From: a bacterium
GTDB taxonomy: Bacteria; ARS69
Direction: 5' to 3'
Length of the DNA stretch: 9,935 nt
NCBI GenBank assembly: GCA_025774865.1
Contig: JALGZO010000286.1
Coordinates: 1 to 9,935, forward strand
The notes under the pieces are model-generated. The model ran no database searches, was not told where the DNA came from, and saw only the letters and a program-made list of their open reading frames with translations. The number at the start of each line of letters is the position of its first letter. Positions within the stretch are counted from its first letter, which is position 1. Shown piece after piece: positions 3,219 through 9,935 of the stretch. The translations under genes were made by a program, and so were the position numbers.

Positions 3219-3226
3219 AAGAGGTG
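3219..3226 (+). promoter_or_regulatory. Shine-Dalgarno sequence fixing the start at 3231
   Basis: AAGAGGTG ends 4 nt before ATG 3231 and is a good match to the anti-Shine-Dalgarno sequence. It supports initiation at 3231, upstream of the in-frame TGA, rather than at a downstream GTG such as 3444. Confidence 0.65.
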
Positions 3227-3230
3227 CTGC

Positions 3231-4613
3231 ATGCGCAAGGCCGTCGGATTCACCTTCTTGTCGGTCCTCGGACTCGCGTGGGGCCTCGGGGCCGACGCTG
3301 ATGGGCCGGGGAAGAAAGTGTTCCTGGTCTACTCCGCCGATGAGAGGTCCGAGCTCGCCCCCTGCGGCTGAAAGGCCAAGGATAAGGGTGGGCTGGCCCG
3401 GCGGGCTGGCGAGATCGAGGAGTTCCAGAAGATCCATCCGCGGGTGTTCGCTTGCAGCTCGGGCGACATCTTCGAATGGGCGTCGGCGACCCGCGCGCCG
3501 CGCGACGATTCGTTGCTGAAAGCGAATTTCATGGCGCAGGCCCTCGGGCTCTTGGACTACGACGCGATCGCGCTCGGAGAAAAGGACCTGGCCTACGGCC
3601 GGGCGTTTCTTCAGGACGCCGCTAACCAGCACGGCCTGAAGTTCGTCTGCGCCAACGCGATCGACCGCACGACGAAGGAGACCATCTTCCCTCCGTACGC
3701 GGTCAGCGAGCGCAACGGAGTTCGAGTGGCGTTCATCGGCGTCGTGTCCCCGGAACGGCACATCACGGCCCAGGTCGAGTCGGCGCTCCTCGATCACCAG
3801 ATCGAGATCGTGGACCCGACCGAGATGACCATGAAGGTCATGGACGAGATTCGCGCCAAGGCTGACCTCGTCGTCCTCTTGTCGCACACCGGCATCGAGA
3901 GCTCGGAGTATCTCGCCGAGGATCTCCCCGTGGACGTGGTCCTCGTCGGACACTACCCGGCGATCCAACACGACCCGAAGGAGGTCGGGGGCGCCGTGTT
4001 CGCCATGGCCGGATCGAAGTCCGATCGCTTCGGCACGCTGGAGCTGACGCTGACCGAGGACTTGTCCGAGGTCGCGGCGTTCGAGGGTGATGCGATCCGA
4101 CTCCTCTCGAAGGGACCCGAAAACGCGCAGATCAACGCGCTCGCGGTCGAGTCCGACCGGCTGGACAAGGAGCGAAAGAAAGAGCAGCAGCTGGCGAGGC
4201 AGCGGGAACGTGAGGATGCGAACAAGCTACAGACGACCGCGAAGATCCATCAACGGGGCGGCGTGTTCGGGGCCGAGTCGTGCAAGTCTTGCCACGAACC
4301 GGTGTACGACACGTGGATGCAGACACCGCACGCGACCGCATTCGCCACGCTTGCCGAGGCCGACTCCTGGGACGATCCGGACTGCATCGGCTGCCACGTG
4401 ACGGGCGTGGAAGACAAGACCTACGTGGCGGACGTCAACTTGCCGCCCGAGGTCTGGAACGTGCAGTGCGAGGAGTGCCACGGCAGTGGACTCCAGCATG
4501 CGCGCGACGGTTCCTACATGACGAGTGGCGAAGCCACTTGCCGCAAGTGCCACGATCCGGACAACAGTCCGGAATTCGACTACGAGCTGTACTCGTCATA
4601 CGGAGTGCACTGA
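3231..4613 (+). CDS. Probable selenocysteine-containing periplasmic tetrahaem cytochrome with 5'-nucleotidase-like (metallophosphatase-fold) domain
   Basis: Encodes 460 residues if TGA 3369 is read as selenocysteine (residue 47). ATG 3231 has a strong Shine-Dalgarno and begins a clear Sec-type signal peptide: basic MRK, a hydrophobic core, and a GADA cleavage site near residue 23/24. A metallophosphatase/5'-nucleotidase-like domain follows. Asp37, Asp79, SHTG (His219) and VGHYP (His241) are recognisable, but the usual D-x-H is SADERSE and the usual GNHE/D is LGEKDL, so the dimetal site looks degenerate and phosphatase activity is doubtful. The motif Pro44-Cys45-Gly46-TGA47 and GGLARRA (53-59) matches the PCGC...GGLxRR segment I recall from Cys-containing relatives. 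After a charged helical linker (about 304-343) come four CxxCH haem c sites at 351, 385, 413 and 437, in a cytochrome c554-like pattern that includes TPHATAF and a C-terminal SPEFDY. The protein should act in the periplasm as an electron-transfer or redox enzyme; its substrate is unknown. The alternative is a nonsense mutation or base error at TGC. Confidence 0.8.
3369..3371 (+). other. In-frame TGA, predicted selenocysteine codon (Sec47)
   Basis: This is the only stop triplet between ATG 3231 and the terminal TGA at 4611. It directly follows Cys-Gly (TGC GGC), giving Cys-Gly-Sec. Both flanks keep strong G/C third-position bias and protein-like sequence: 46 codons upstream, and 24 codons downstream before the next possible start at 3444. 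In relatives as I remember them this position is Cys, and TGC to TGA is the classic Cys/Sec exchange. Confidence 0.75.
3392..3410 (+). promoter_or_regulatory. Candidate bacterial SECIS hairpin
   Basis: Eight pairs (3392-3399 with 3403-3410: GCTGGCCC against GGGCTGGC, including two G:U pairs) close a GGC loop. The loop starts after 28 nt of sequence downstream of the TGA. A G as first loop base and this spacing fit what is known of bacterial SECIS elements, which lie inside the coding region just after the UGA and bind SelB. The alternative pairing 3374-3378 with 3394-3398 (GGCCA/TGGCC, 15-nt loop) would exclude it. Local GC is high, so chance hairpins are likely; the support is moderate. Confidence 0.5.
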
Positions 4614-5584
4614 TCCGACTCCGCCTCCGGGCGGTCGCGGCGGCGACCGGCGTGGCGCTCTTCGTGCCGAGCCCGGCCGGAGCGTGGGGCGAGCGGACCC
4701 ACGAGATCATCAACCGCCGCTCGATCGAGTTCCTCCCCGAGCCGGCGCGTTCGGAGTGGGCGGCGATGGCGCTCCCCCTCGGCGCCCATGCGAGTGACGC
4801 CGATCACCGCAAGAGCCGCGTGCCCGGCGAGCGCCCCCGTCACTTCATCGACATCGACGTCTACGACGAGCACCCGTTCGACGACGTGCCGCGGGACCTC
4901 GAGGAGCTCGTGCGGAAGCGGGGTCGGGAGGAGGTGGACCAGTGGGGCACCGTGCCGTGGGCCATCGAGGAGTGCTGGCGGATGCTCGTCCTGTCTCTCG
5001 AACGCGGCGACTGGAGCTCCGCCGGAGCGTGGGGGGCGGATCTCGGGCACTACGTCGCGGACTCTCACCAGCCGCTCCACTGCACCGTGAACTACGACGG
5101 CCAGAACACGGGAAACGATGGCGTGCACCTGCGCTTCGAGGTGCACATGATGAATCGGCACTTCGACGAGACCCTGATCGACCGGACGGCCCCGCTTCCG
5201 GATCCGGGGGGAGACGTGGTCGAGTTTTGCTTCGGCTGGATTGCGGCCGCCTACCCCGGTCTCCACCCGATCCTGCGCGCCGATACGGAGGCGCGCGAGG
5301 CTGATTCCGGGCACGGCGACGCCTACTATCAGGAGATGTGGTCCCAGACCCGGGATCTTGCGACCTCCCAGGTGACCGCCGCGGCTCGAGATCTGGCCGC
5401 CCTCTACCTGGCCGCCTGGGAGGAGGCAGGGAGCCCGCCCGGGCCCGAAATTGCGCCTCCGTTCTCGGCTCTGCCCCCGGAGGTTCTCGACCCCCCCCAG
5501 ACGCGCTCCGGGACCGCCCACCGGGGGGCCTGGCTCACCGCGGCCGCGATCCTCGTCTCGGCGCTCGTCCTGGGGAGCCGCTGA
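4610..5584 (+). CDS. Secreted zinc-dependent S1/P1 nuclease / phospholipase C family protein
   Basis: Encodes 324 residues from CTG 4610. The family uses three zinc ions to cleave phosphodiester bonds in nucleic acids or phospholipids outside the cytoplasm. From CTG the protein begins with a 25-residue signal peptide ending PSPAGA, so the mature chain starts at Trp26. This is the hallmark N-terminal Trp whose amino group binds zinc. The other ligands line up by spacing: His31, Asp63, His78, His147-x3-Asp151-x5-His157 (within LGHYVADSHQPLH), His173 and Glu177. Trp-x4-His is S1/P1-like, while His173-x3-Glu177 is phospholipase C-like. A hydrophobic C-terminal segment (about 308-322, with a final Arg) may anchor it in the membrane. 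No ATG, GTG or TTG stands at the right place: GTG 4547 would give a 46-residue leader, and GTG 4652 would destroy the signal peptide. GGAG at 4602-4605 precedes the CTG, which overlaps the upstream TGA (CTGA), suggesting translational coupling. Substrate class is undecided. Confidence 0.85.
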   Translation: MIRLRLRAVAAATGVALFVPSPAGAWGERTHEIINRRSIEFLPEPARSEWAAMALPLGAHASDADHRKSRVPGERPRHFIDIDVYDEHPFDDVPRDLEELVRKRGREEVDQWGTVPWAIEECWRMLVLSLERGDWSSAGAWGADLGHYVADSHQPLHCTVNYDGQNTGNDGVHLRFEVHMMNRHFDETLIDRTAPLPDPGGDVVEFCFGWIAAAYPGLHPILRADTEAREADSGHGDAYYQEMWSQTRDLATSQVTAAARDLAALYLAAWEEAGSPPGPEIAPPFSALPPEVLDPPQTRSGTAHRGAWLTAAAILVSALVLGSR

Positions 5585-6103: not shown

Positions 6104-6853
6104 ATGTCCTGGGTCTTGGACGCATTCGGTCCCTGGTATCCGACCATCTACCCCCACCGAAACGACGCCGAGGCGGCGCGATTGCTCGCAACGCTGGCCG
6201 AGAACGTGACCTTGGCCGGGCGCCGCATTCTCGACGTCGGCTGCGGCGCGGGCCGTCACCTCGTCCGCCTCCGGAAGCTGGGATCCGATCCGGTCGGGCT
6301 CGATCTCTCGCCATCGCTCCTGGCGGAGGCTGCCCGCCACGGGCGGGAGGTGGGGGTCCGGGTCCCCCTGGTCCGGGGTGACATGCGGCACCTGCCGTTC
6401 GCGAGCCGCCGCTTCGACGGCGTCACGAGCCTGTTCACGAGCTTCGGCTACTTCAGTCGCGACGAGGATCGCCGGGTGGTCCGTGAGGCGACCCGGGTCC
6501 TCGTCCCGGACGGATTTCACCTTCTGGACTTCCTGAACCGCGATCGCGTGCTCGCGCATCCCAACCCCGAGAGCGAGCGTGAATCGGAAGGGTATCGAAT
6601 TCGGGAGCGCCGCCGGATCGAGGATCGGGGCGGTCGCGTGGTCAAGCGCGTGACCGTGCTCTCGAAGGACGCCGAGGAGCCGGTCATCGACTACGAGGAG
6701 CGGGTGAACCTCTGGGGGCCGGACGAGCTGCGCTCGCTTCTCGAGAGCGCCGGACTTCACGTGCTTCAGGAGTGGGGCGAGTACGACGGCTCCCCGTTCG
6801 AAGCCGGGTCGAGCTCCCGGCACGTGTGGCTGAGCCGCAAGGAGAGGGGATGA
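6104..6853 (+). CDS. Class I SAM-dependent methyltransferase, coupled to bshC (candidate bacillithiol N-methyltransferase)
   Basis: Encodes 249 residues with a Rossmann-like methyltransferase fold. Motif I is ILDVGCGAGRH (42-52), followed by an acidic GLDLSPSLL strand end, GDMRHLPF (92-99), FTSFGYFS, a DFLNRD segment, and a C-terminal YDGSPF motif typical of small-molecule SmtA/UbiE-like enzymes. The N-terminus reads MSWVLDAFGPWYPTIYPHR, matching the W-x-x-x-F...Y...HR opening I recall for this family. For that reason ATG 6104 is preferred over ATG 6092, which would add four residues. Neither start has a clear ribosome binding site. The stop overlaps the bshC start as ATGA. Green sulfur bacteria make N-methyl-bacillithiol with a SAM methyltransferase called NmbA. 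The coupling here makes a similar role plausible, but orthology cannot be judged from the sequence alone, so no symbol is given. Confidence 0.9.
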   Translation: MSWVLDAFGPWYPTIYPHRNDAEAARLLATLAENVTLAGRRILDVGCGAGRHLVRLRKLGSDPVGLDLSPSLLAEAARHGREVGVRVPLVRGDMRHLPFASRRFDGVTSLFTSFGYFSRDEDRRVVREATRVLVPDGFHLLDFLNRDRVLAHPNPESERESEGYRIRERRRIEDRGGRVVKRVTVLSKDAEEPVIDYEERVNLWGPDELRSLLESAGLHVLQEWGEYDGSPFEAGSSSRHVWLSRKERG

Positions 6854-8490
6854 GCTTGACCGTGTCCGCACGCGCGCCCGTCTCCGTCGCACCGATCGCG
6901 GACGGTTTCCCGGGCGCCTGGCTGCGGGGCGACCCCAAGGCGCGTCCCTTCCTACCGCGACACCCGTCGGTCGAGGGCGACTGGACGGCACGAATCGACG
7001 AAGTCGATCGCACGCCGCCGGCGGTCGAGGTCTGGGAACGGGCTCGGGCCTGTGGCGAGCGTCTAGGAGCGTCGAGCGAGTCGACCTCGAACGCACGCGC
7101 CCTGGCGGACGGCTCCACCCTGTGTGTCACGGCGGGGCAGCAGCCGGGGCTCTTTCTCGGTCCTCTCTACACGGTGTACAAGGCGATGACGGCGGTCGCG
7201 CTGGCGCGGAGCCTGGCGGCACGAGCCGAGCGGACCGTCGTCCCGGTGTTCTGGAACGCGGCGGACGACAGCGATTTCGACGAGATCGGTTCGGCGGTCC
7301 TGCCGGATCCGGATTTCCGACTCACGAAGCACTCGCTCGCCGGCGGCGATCTCGCGGCCGGCGGGATGGTCGGTGATCTCTCCACGGACGGTACGGCGCG
7401 CGCCGTCGAGGAAGCCCGCGAGCTCCTGCGTGGCCGATCCGCGGGAGAGGCGATTCTTCGTCACCTGGACGGAGCGGTCTCGCGGGCGAAGGACCATGGC
7501 GAGATCGCGACGGCGCTCCTCTACGATCTCTTTCGCGGAACGGGGCTCGTCGTCGTCGATGGGAGGTGGCCGGAGCTTCGTCGCGCGGCCGCGCCCCTGT
7601 TCGAGCGGTACGCGAAGCAACGCGAGGCGATCGGCCGGGCGGTGATGTCGGCGGGAGCCGATCTCGAAGAATCGGGATACCGTGCGCCGATCGCCGAGGT
7701 GTCCACGCACTCCGCCCTCTTCGAGCTTCGCTCTGGGCGAAGGCATCAGTTCGAGGGAACCACCGACGAGCTGCTGAAGCGGATCCGCGAGGCTCCGGAG
7801 ACGCTGTCGCCGAACGTGATGCTCCGTCCCGTGGTTCAGGATTCGCTATTTCCGAACGTGGCGACGGTCGGGGGGCCGGGCGAGGTCTCCTACCACGCCC
7901 AGCTCTCGCCGAACTACGAAGCGCTCGGCGTCTCGATGGCCATTCTCTTCCCGCGGTTCGAGGCAACGCTCGTGCCACGGGGAGTGTACGAGCTCGCCGA
8001 GCGTCGCGGCGCTTCCGTCGAGGCGTTCGTGCTCGACTTCGACGCGGCGATGAAGAAGACCGCACCACGGGCGCTGCCCGAAGCGCTCAAGGTGGCGCTC
8101 GACGGCTTCGAGGCGCGCGTCGTCGGCGACGCGGATCGGCTGCGAGAGGAGGCCGCGAGCTTCGATGCGGGCCTGACCGGCGCGGTCGATGAAGCGCTGC
8201 AGCGGGCGCAAGACGCCGTGCGGAAGCTGCGGGGCAAGGCGGCGGGTGCGGCGCGCGCGGCGGAGAAGCGTCGCGATCCGTCAGTGAAGCACTACCGGGA
8301 ATTCTTGCGCCCCCGGGGAGTTCCGCAGGAGCGAGTGCTCTCGGCCTTGACGCTCTTCCTGGAGACGATCGGGAGCCCCCTGGACTGTCTCGAGGAGGCT
8401 CTCGCCCGGCACGTGGAGGCGGCGCGGGACGGGCGTCCGGGGCATTGGCTCCTCGACTTCGGCGGCTGCCGCGACGGGGAAGCAGCGTGA
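6850..8490 (+). CDS. bshC: Bacillithiol biosynthesis cysteine-adding enzyme BshC
   Basis: Encodes 546 residues, a normal BshC length. BshC is the cytosolic enzyme assigned to the last step, joining cysteine to glucosaminyl-malate to give bacillithiol. Family landmarks are clear: GQQPGLFLGPLYTVYKA (96-112), PVFWNAADDSDFDEI (132-146), LSPNVMLRPVVQDSLFPNVA, and VGGPGEVSYHAQLSPNYE (340-357). A charged helical, coiled-coil-like segment follows (about 425-480), then FLRPRGVPQERVL near the C-terminus. The start is ATG 6850, overlapping the methyltransferase stop by 4 nt, with GGAG at 6841-6844. It overlaps bshB1 by GTGA. The fold resembles class I aminoacyl-tRNA ligases with an added coiled coil. 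I saw no disruption. Confidence 0.95.
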   Translation: MSLTVSARAPVSVAPIADGFPGAWLRGDPKARPFLPRHPSVEGDWTARIDEVDRTPPAVEVWERARACGERLGASSESTSNARALADGSTLCVTAGQQPGLFLGPLYTVYKAMTAVALARSLAARAERTVVPVFWNAADDSDFDEIGSAVLPDPDFRLTKHSLAGGDLAAGGMVGDLSTDGTARAVEEARELLRGRSAGEAILRHLDGAVSRAKDHGEIATALLYDLFRGTGLVVVDGRWPELRRAAAPLFERYAKQREAIGRAVMSAGADLEESGYRAPIAEVSTHSALFELRSGRRHQFEGTTDELLKRIREAPETLSPNVMLRPVVQDSLFPNVATVGGPGEVSYHAQLSPNYEALGVSMAILFPRFEATLVPRGVYELAERRGASVEAFVLDFDAAMKKTAPRALPEALKVALDGFEARVVGDADRLREEAASFDAGLTGAVDEALQRAQDAVRKLRGKAAGAARAAEKRRDPSVKHYREFLRPRGVPQERVLSALTLFLETIGSPLDCLEEALARHVEAARDGRPGHWLLDFGGCRDGEAA

Positions 8491-9221
8491 CGGTTCTCGC
8501 GTTCGGCGCGCATCCCGACGACGTCGACCTCTACGCCGGTGGGCTCGTGGCGGCGCTGACGCGGCGGGGGGTGGAGGTCGTTCTGTGCGACCTGACGGCC
8601 GGCGAGCTCGGTACGCGGGGCACTCCCGAGCTTCGCGCGGAAGAAGCGGAGGAGGCGGCGCGCATCCTCGGCATCGAGACGCGCGAGTGTCTCGGCCTCC
8701 CCGACGGCGGCATCGTGCGAACCGACGAGGCGCAGACGCGGGCGGTGGTGGAGTCGATGCGTCGGTATCGCCCGGAATTGATTCTCGCGCCGTACGAAGT
8801 GGATCTCCACCCCGATCACCGGGAAGCGGCGCACCTGGTCCGACGGGCTCGGTTCTTCGCTCGGGTCGACCGGTTCGACGCGACTGGCGATCCCTGCCGC
8901 CCCGGCCCGATCCTCTTCTACGAACAGAAGATCCCGCTCGAGCCGCACCTCGTGGTCGACATCGGGGAAGTGCGGGAAGTGAAGCGCGAGGCGGTTCGCG
9001 CGTTTTCGTCGCAGTTCTTCCGCGCGCCCGACGATCCCGTCCGCACCGAAATCTCGGAGCCCGAGTTCCACGAAATGCTCGACGCGCGCTCGCGCGCGCA
9101 CGGCTCGCGCATCGGGGTCACCTGGGGTGAGGGGTATCGTCGCGACGAGCCCCAGGCCGTTCAGGACCCCGTTCATCTTCTCCCGGGGACGCGTCTCGCG
9201 AGGAAGGTGGAGCACTCGTGA
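8487..9221 (+). CDS. bshB1: Bacillithiol biosynthesis deacetylase BshB1
   Basis: Encodes 244 residues from GTG 8487, which overlaps the bshC stop as GTGA and has GGGGA at 8476-8480. It is a LmbE/PIG-L-type zinc deacetylase that removes acetate from N-acetylglucosaminyl-malate. Motifs: GAHPDDVDLYAGG with His9, Asp11 and Asp12 (zinc/catalysis), DLTAGELGTRGT, PYEVDLHPDHREA with His108 to His111 (zinc side), KREAVRAFSSQF, and a C-terminal GVTWGEGYR. The DLTAGELGTRGT and GVTWGEGYR signatures separate BshB1 from MshB and other PIG-L proteins. An Asp replaces the more usual Glu two residues after AHPDD, a mild change. It lies between bshC and bshA and completes the pathway. Confidence 0.95.
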   Translation: MTVLAFGAHPDDVDLYAGGLVAALTRRGVEVVLCDLTAGELGTRGTPELRAEEAEEAARILGIETRECLGLPDGGIVRTDEAQTRAVVESMRRYRPELILAPYEVDLHPDHREAAHLVRRARFFARVDRFDATGDPCRPGPILFYEQKIPLEPHLVVDIGEVREVKREAVRAFSSQFFRAPDDPVRTEISEPEFHEMLDARSRAHGSRIGVTWGEGYRRDEPQAVQDPVHLLPGTRLARKVEHS

Positions 9222-9935
9222 GAATCGGGATGGTCTGCTACGCCAGCCACGGCGGCAGCGGCATCGTGGCGACGGAGCTCGGCACGGAGCTGGCGCAGCG
9301 AGGCCATGAAGTACACTTCATCACGAACGACGTTCCGGTCCGCATGGACCGGTTCATGGAGAACATCTTTTTCCACCGGGTGGAGGTCGACACCTACCCG
9401 GTCTTCGCGTACACGCCCTATTCGCTGAATCTCGCGGCGAAGATCCTGGACGTCATCAAGAGTCACGGACTCGACGTGATTCACGCCCACTATGCGGTTC
9501 CCCACGCGACGTCGGCGTACCTCGCCAAGCAGATGCGTCGCCCCTGTGACGTGCGCACCGTCACGACGTTGCACGGCACGGACATCACGCTCGTCGGTGT
9601 GAAGCCGTCCTTCTACGAGATCACGCGTTTCTCGATCGAGCAGTCGGATCGCGTGACCGCCGTGTCCGACTGGCTCCGGCAGAAGACCATCGAGAGCTTC
9701 GAGTACGAGAAGCCGATCGACGTGGTCCACAACTTCGTGGACGCCGATCGGTTCCGTCCTTTTCGCGGAGACAAGAAGCGGAGCCGTTTTGCCGCGGCGG
9801 GCGAGTTCGTGATCATGCACGCGTCGAACTTCCGGCCGGTGAAGAACATCCCGACCGTGATCCGGGTGTTCGAGGCGCTGCGCAAGCGCTATCCCGTGAA
9901 GCTCCTCCTGGTGGGGGACGGCCCGCAGCACGCGG
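9218..9935 (+). CDS. bshA: N-acetyl-alpha-D-glucosaminyl L-malate synthase BshA (3' partial)
   Basis: Starts at GTG 9218, overlapping the bshB1 stop as GTGA, with GGAG at 9209-9212. It runs off the window after 239 codons of an expected ~375-380. BshA is a GT4-family glycosyltransferase that joins GlcNAc from UDP-GlcNAc to L-malate, the first step of bacillithiol synthesis, in the cytosol. Landmarks: an N-terminal GGSGIVATELG glycine-rich loop (12-22), GHEVHFIT, FFHRVEVDTYPVF, HAHYAVPHATSAYLAKQM, TTLHGTDITLVG, RFSIEQSDRVTAVS, VVHNFVDADRF, HASNFRPVKN and the start of the donor-binding half, LLLVGDGPQ. These are diagnostic for BshA within GT4. The catalytic C-terminal glutamate region lies outside the window. 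Confidence 0.94.
   Translation, partial: MRIGMVCYASHGGSGIVATELGTELAQRGHEVHFITNDVPVRMDRFMENIFFHRVEVDTYPVFAYTPYSLNLAAKILDVIKSHGLDVIHAHYAVPHATSAYLAKQMRRPCDVRTVTTLHGTDITLVGVKPSFYEITRFSIEQSDRVTAVSDWLRQKTIESFEYEKPIDVVHNFVDADRFRPFRGDKKRSRFAAAGEFVIMHASNFRPVKNIPTVIRVFEALRKRYPVKLLLVGDGPQHA

Follow-up and report, generated by a model that had tools for sequence, protein, structure and literature searches.

A gene at positions 3231-4613 of the forward strand of the window (the whole stretch of 9,935 nucleotides that was analysed) very probably encodes an exported member of the catalogued UshA-like (PCGU) selenoprotein family, in which an in-frame TGA codon (3369-3371) serves as the selenocysteine (Sec) codon; the probability of this reading is put at about 0.95. 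Here, a stop codon would be read as Sec in a poorly known bacterial lineage, within a gene that a plain open reading frame (ORF) caller would truncate. The novelty of the gene itself is small, as its family is already among the catalogued selenoprotein families. The new detail is the combination of a degenerate metallophosphatase site with a retained Cys-Gly-Sec motif and four haems, which offers a concrete mechanism to test.

The reading frame starts with an ATG at 3231, ends with a TGA at 4611-4613 and contains a single internal in-frame stop, the TGA at 3369-3371, giving on read-through a product of 460 residues with Sec at residue 47. The ATG is preceded at a distance of four bases by a Shine-Dalgarno-like GAGGTG (3221-3226), and the frame opens with a probable signal peptide (3231-3290) whose hydrophobic N-terminal segment, residues 2-18, is also a helix in the structural model. 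The TGA is the last codon of a Cys45-Gly46-Sec47 motif (TGC GGC TGA, 3363-3371) located within the block PCG-TGA-KAKDKGGLARR. Four CxxCH haem sites can be recognized in the translation and the alignment at residues 351-355 (4281-4295), 385-389 (4383-4397), 413-417 (4467-4481) and 437-441 (4539-4553). The G/C content of third codon positions is 0.87 upstream of the TGA, 0.83 from the TGA to 3443 and 0.86 beyond, and downstream of the TGA the two other frames contain 8 and 5 stops, compared with none in the frame of the gene. An earlier reading made from the letters alone (the sequence-only reading) had described the single in-frame TGA, the good Shine-Dalgarno sequence, the signal peptide, the metallophosphatase-like domain, the four haem sites and the third-position bias on both sides of the TGA, and each of these was recovered. 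It had also stated that an automatic caller would see only 3444-4613. This holds for a plain table-11 ORF list, where the sole long ORF remaining on the frame is 3444-4613 (GTG start, 389 amino acids), but a pipeline using the NCBIfam model NF041198 could recognize the gene.

With the TGA presented to programs as Cys, the read-through product scores 282.6 bits against NF041198, above the curated cut-off of 275. This model, 'UshA-like (seleno)protein' (UshA_like_PCGU), is named for its PCGU motif and is matched in two parts, profile positions 21-269 (the UshA-like domain) and 345-519 (the four-haem domain), the latter aligned to window positions 4065-4586. The family motif, PCG(U/C) followed by GGLxRR, is present as PCGU-KAKDK-GGLARR. 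The haem sites form a cytochrome c554-type tetrahaem domain (4281-4553) with a PF13435 match at residues 350-418, and all 53 haem-bearing homologues that were gathered match both NF041198 and Pfam Cytochrome_C554. The window protein shares with the NF041198 family the score, the PCGU motif and the UshA-like and haem profile parts; no substantive difference is seen, and it can be considered a further member, contributed by an uncultured lineage. A second model, UshA-like (seleno)protein family 2 (NF049981), is short (262 positions), lists the motif CxxU and is matched weakly, with 45.8 bits over residues 32-240 against a cut-off of 140. Searches against plasmids with tblastn returned general UshA/SoxB-type relatives only. 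The UshA-like proteins have been catalogued as a selenoprotein family with the motif CxU since a marine metagenome survey of 2008 (PMC2398784), and the family is also listed, under COG0737, in later reviews (PMC9312934, PMC13188914). The suggestion in the sequence-only reading that Sec together with four c-type haems in one exported protein would be unusual did not survive: novelty was overstated because NF041198 already describes this selenoprotein family and includes the haem domain in its model, and 33 of 40 Sec members carry CxxCH motifs in frame downstream. The PCGU family is common in selA-bearing genomes, and no known function for it was found in this analysis.

The identity of residue 47 among homologues was assessed in 386 genomes taken as relatives, mostly from elsewhere in the domain Bacteria, with a family match in 166. 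When the fetched loci were tallied with a profile, the residue-47 column was TGA in 50 cases and Cys in another 50 (29 TGC and 21 TGT), in keeping with the claim that the TGA follows Pro-Cys-Gly directly at a position where relatives have Cys or Sec. The other 22 matched stretches, with a gap in 11 and other residues in 11, belong for the most part to general UshA-type proteins that lack the CxC/U motif. For column 47 this tally is preferred to a search by motif, in which Cys45 was taken as given and a small number of residues were spurious; it is also preferred to the member alignment, where residues 45 and 47 are invariant partly because of how members were selected. The phylum is represented by five genomes, all of one taxonomic family, each with at least one PCGU gene, and all nine members found there, which fall into two paralogue groups, have TGA. 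Four further genomes of that taxonomic family also have TGA at this codon, which rules out a sequencing error at a single base. Relatives keep the gene order that surrounds the window copy, so the contig belongs to the same lineage.

The sequence-only reading had proposed a search of the same genome for the selenocysteine machinery, and all four genes were found, as is expected for a bacterial selenoprotein: selA (543 bits), selB (340 bits, or 367 bits with a C-terminal piece added in frame), selC (a single tRNA-Sec scoring 72.7 bits, anticodon TCA) and selD (369 bits). The selD gene (contig C477, 1420-2355) has an in-frame TGA of its own (SHTAG-U-ASK), and its product is likely a selenoprotein itself. 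A second PCGU paralogue is found on contig C428. The sel genes are located on contigs other than that of the window, in a genome bin with 8.3% estimated contamination; a relative that is 100% complete (G001) has both PCGU genes and selA. Among motif-bearing members of the protein family selA is present for 36 of 40 Sec forms versus 11 of 29 Cys forms (Fisher p = 6e-6, with related genomes not independent). The four Sec forms without selA come from three genomes: G290 and two incomplete genomes of the taxonomic family of the window (completeness 82% and 67%). Reading the TGA as Sec is thus supported by the residue-47 column of the homologues and by the sel genes.

Two other accounts of the TGA can be weighed against this evidence. 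Were it a true stop, or an error of sequencing or assembly, the locus would be a pseudogene or the gene would start at the GTG at 3444, an account with which both the table-11 ORF of 389 amino acids and the derivation of the sequence from a single metagenome-derived contig agree. It is nevertheless very improbable, given that 50 family members, spread over many genomes, have TGA at that codon and Cys codons are otherwise found there, that no decay is seen on either side of it, that the PCGU...GGLARR block is conserved upstream of 3444, and that Sec forms are associated with selA. Hardly credible at all is a genome-wide reassignment of UGA to another amino acid, which would make it an ordinary sense codon; read-through does leave an open frame, yet TGA terminates the window gene (4611-4613) as well as the neighbouring genes for pyruvate kinase and BshC, its occurrences inside genes are confined to expected Sec positions (PCGU and SelD), and the homologue column holds Cys rather than Trp or Gly.

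Decoding of the UGA at codon 47 as Sec would be carried out by SelB, aided by a SECIS hairpin with its loop 28 nucleotides downstream. The candidate hairpin at 3392-3410 (5′ stem 3392-3399, loop GGC 3400-3402, 3′ stem 3403-3410) has an 8-bp stem, and with 28 nucleotides between UGA and loop it agrees with the published model of bacterial SECIS elements that PMC13188914 quotes. By itself the hairpin of the window is not significant (z of -0.88 against dinucleotide shuffles; 11 of 100 against synonymous shuffles), and an Rfam scan of the window at gathering thresholds gave no match. The argument for a putative SECIS element comes from comparison of family sequences rather than from this hairpin. 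A fitting hairpin occurs in 40 of 40 Sec genes, with a mean z of -1.71 against synonymous shuffles, versus a mean z of -0.37 for Cys genes, five of which have no hairpin. Two recurrent forms can be recognized among the Sec genes, one with a GGC or GGA loop mostly at 28 nucleotides and one with a GGTCT-type loop at 18-19 nucleotides. Among 37 Sec genes the first Arg codon past the GG is CGG in 28, where 11.0 would be expected from the codon usage of each gene; among 24 Cys genes it is CGG in 8, where 6.5 would be expected. Several stem pairs vary on both sides yet stay paired (+24/+36 is G-C, G-U, U-A or U-G), a covariation of limited weight as the same bases are also under coding constraint.

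The fold of the protein was examined with an AlphaFold2 model built from 53 sequences (mean pLDDT 86.7), in which residues 27-318 match 5′-nucleotidases with Z scores of 31-33 (UshA 31.7) and SoxB with a Z score of 30.6. The N-terminal domain (3312-4100, about residues 28-290) shares its fold with the SoxB thiosulfohydrolase and the UshA/CD73 5′-nucleotidases (Z 30-33) but differs from them in its degenerate metal-binding and catalytic motifs and in the additional CxC/U motif and haem domain. Where metallophosphatases have DxH, GD, GNH(E/D), H and GHxH, the window protein has DER, GD, GEKD, H219 and GHYP, with GEKD (residues 116-119, 3576-3587) at the GNH(E/D) position, where the Asn metal ligand and the catalytic His are replaced. 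The intact UshA-type motif set is thus absent from the window protein, and the set is degenerate across the family: the GNH(E/D) Asn and His, the DxH His and the GHxH pair are not conserved in the 53 members, D79 is Asp in 28 of the 53 and H219 is His in 26. The conserved features of the family are the CxC/U pair, the GG-R-R block, the four CxxCH motifs and two histidines, His 367 and His 423, which are the probable distal haem ligands. In a partial literature search no paper was found on the haem domain or the lost metal site of the UshA-like selenoprotein.

The first metal-binding motif is followed by a loop that contains Cys45 and Sec47, and because of this position a Cys-Gly-Sec redox pair may have replaced the hydrolase centre: the N-terminal UshA/SoxB fold would have been kept and the residues that form the two-metal centre lost. 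Cys45 and Sec47 would cycle between a selenenylsulfide and the thiol/selenol state, would exchange electrons with the four haems, which would link them to the electron-transport chain of the periplasm, and might act on a small sulfur or selenium species or a similar substrate. On balance, the protein appears to be a haem-linked Cys-Gly-Sec redox enzyme rather than a nucleotidase. A functional metallophosphatase or nucleotidase that merely carries a haem tail, and in which Sec would be a metal ligand or have a structural role, is improbable; its kinship in fold and sequence to UshA and to cyclic-nucleotide phosphodiesterases speaks for it, as do D37, D79, H219 and H241, which the window protein retains and through which some residual metal binding may persist, but GNHE has lost its Asn and His, DxH its His and GHxH its second His, and D79 and H219 vary among members as described above. 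Less remote, yet still unlikely, is a role in which a metal, metalloid or organometal would bind to the Cys-Gly-Sec motif and be reduced there by the haems, in the manner of a detoxification enzyme. Selenocysteine binds soft metals well, which is consistent with such a role. A comparable case would be ExtKL, a multihaem selenoprotein suggested to take part in selenite reduction by Geobacter (PMC5877670), but ExtKL belongs to another family and no conserved metal-resistance or transport gene adjoins the PCGU genes.

ExtKL (NF040886) and MccSep (PDB 9wt8) are precedents for Sec and several c-type haems in one protein. Both are of a different family from the window protein, which they resemble weakly and in the haem part only (22.4 bits against a cut-off of 250 for ExtKL; E = 0.26 for MccSep), and no gene in the genome of the window exceeds the ExtKL cut-off of 250 bits. 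As for the haem-linked redox enzyme favoured here, coupling to haem is not obligatory for the family. The N-terminal domain can probably work without the fused haem domain, because 7 of the 40 Sec members lack CxxCH motifs downstream in frame. It is tentatively proposed that the PCGU proteins are exported redox enzymes of an uncharacterised class, built on a degenerate metallophosphatase scaffold whose two-metal centre has been exchanged for Cys-Gly-Sec wired to an integral tetrahaem module, and that they act on a sulfur, selenium or metal species in respiration or detoxification.

No neighbouring gene of the window copy suggests a substrate, and the neighbourhoods of family members in seven other genomes and of the second paralogue in the same genome show no consistent partner gene. 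Directly 3′ of the selenoprotein gene lies a region (4616-5584) encoding a weakly S1/P1-nuclease-like exported protein, for which no ATG, GTG or TTG start was seen near the selenoprotein stop; the pair is conserved in three relatives (G001, G003 and G004). A few genes further downstream, a bacillithiol cluster bshC-bshB1-bshA occupies 6850-9934 (325.5, 257.4 and 348.9 bits, all above cut-off), and bshC is also kept nearby in G004. A TonB-dependent receptor with similarity to B12 receptors is encoded near the second PCGU paralogue of the genome (locus L159:2848-4791). Two PCGU-family genes are adjacent to each other in G200, in the four-haem form, and in G140, in the haemless form. In two distant genomes, G151 and G289, the PCGU gene adjoins genes for homologous 11-haem cytochromes that are 54% identical (loci L163:4553-6172 and L165:7063-8709) and are possible electron partners of the PCGU proteins.
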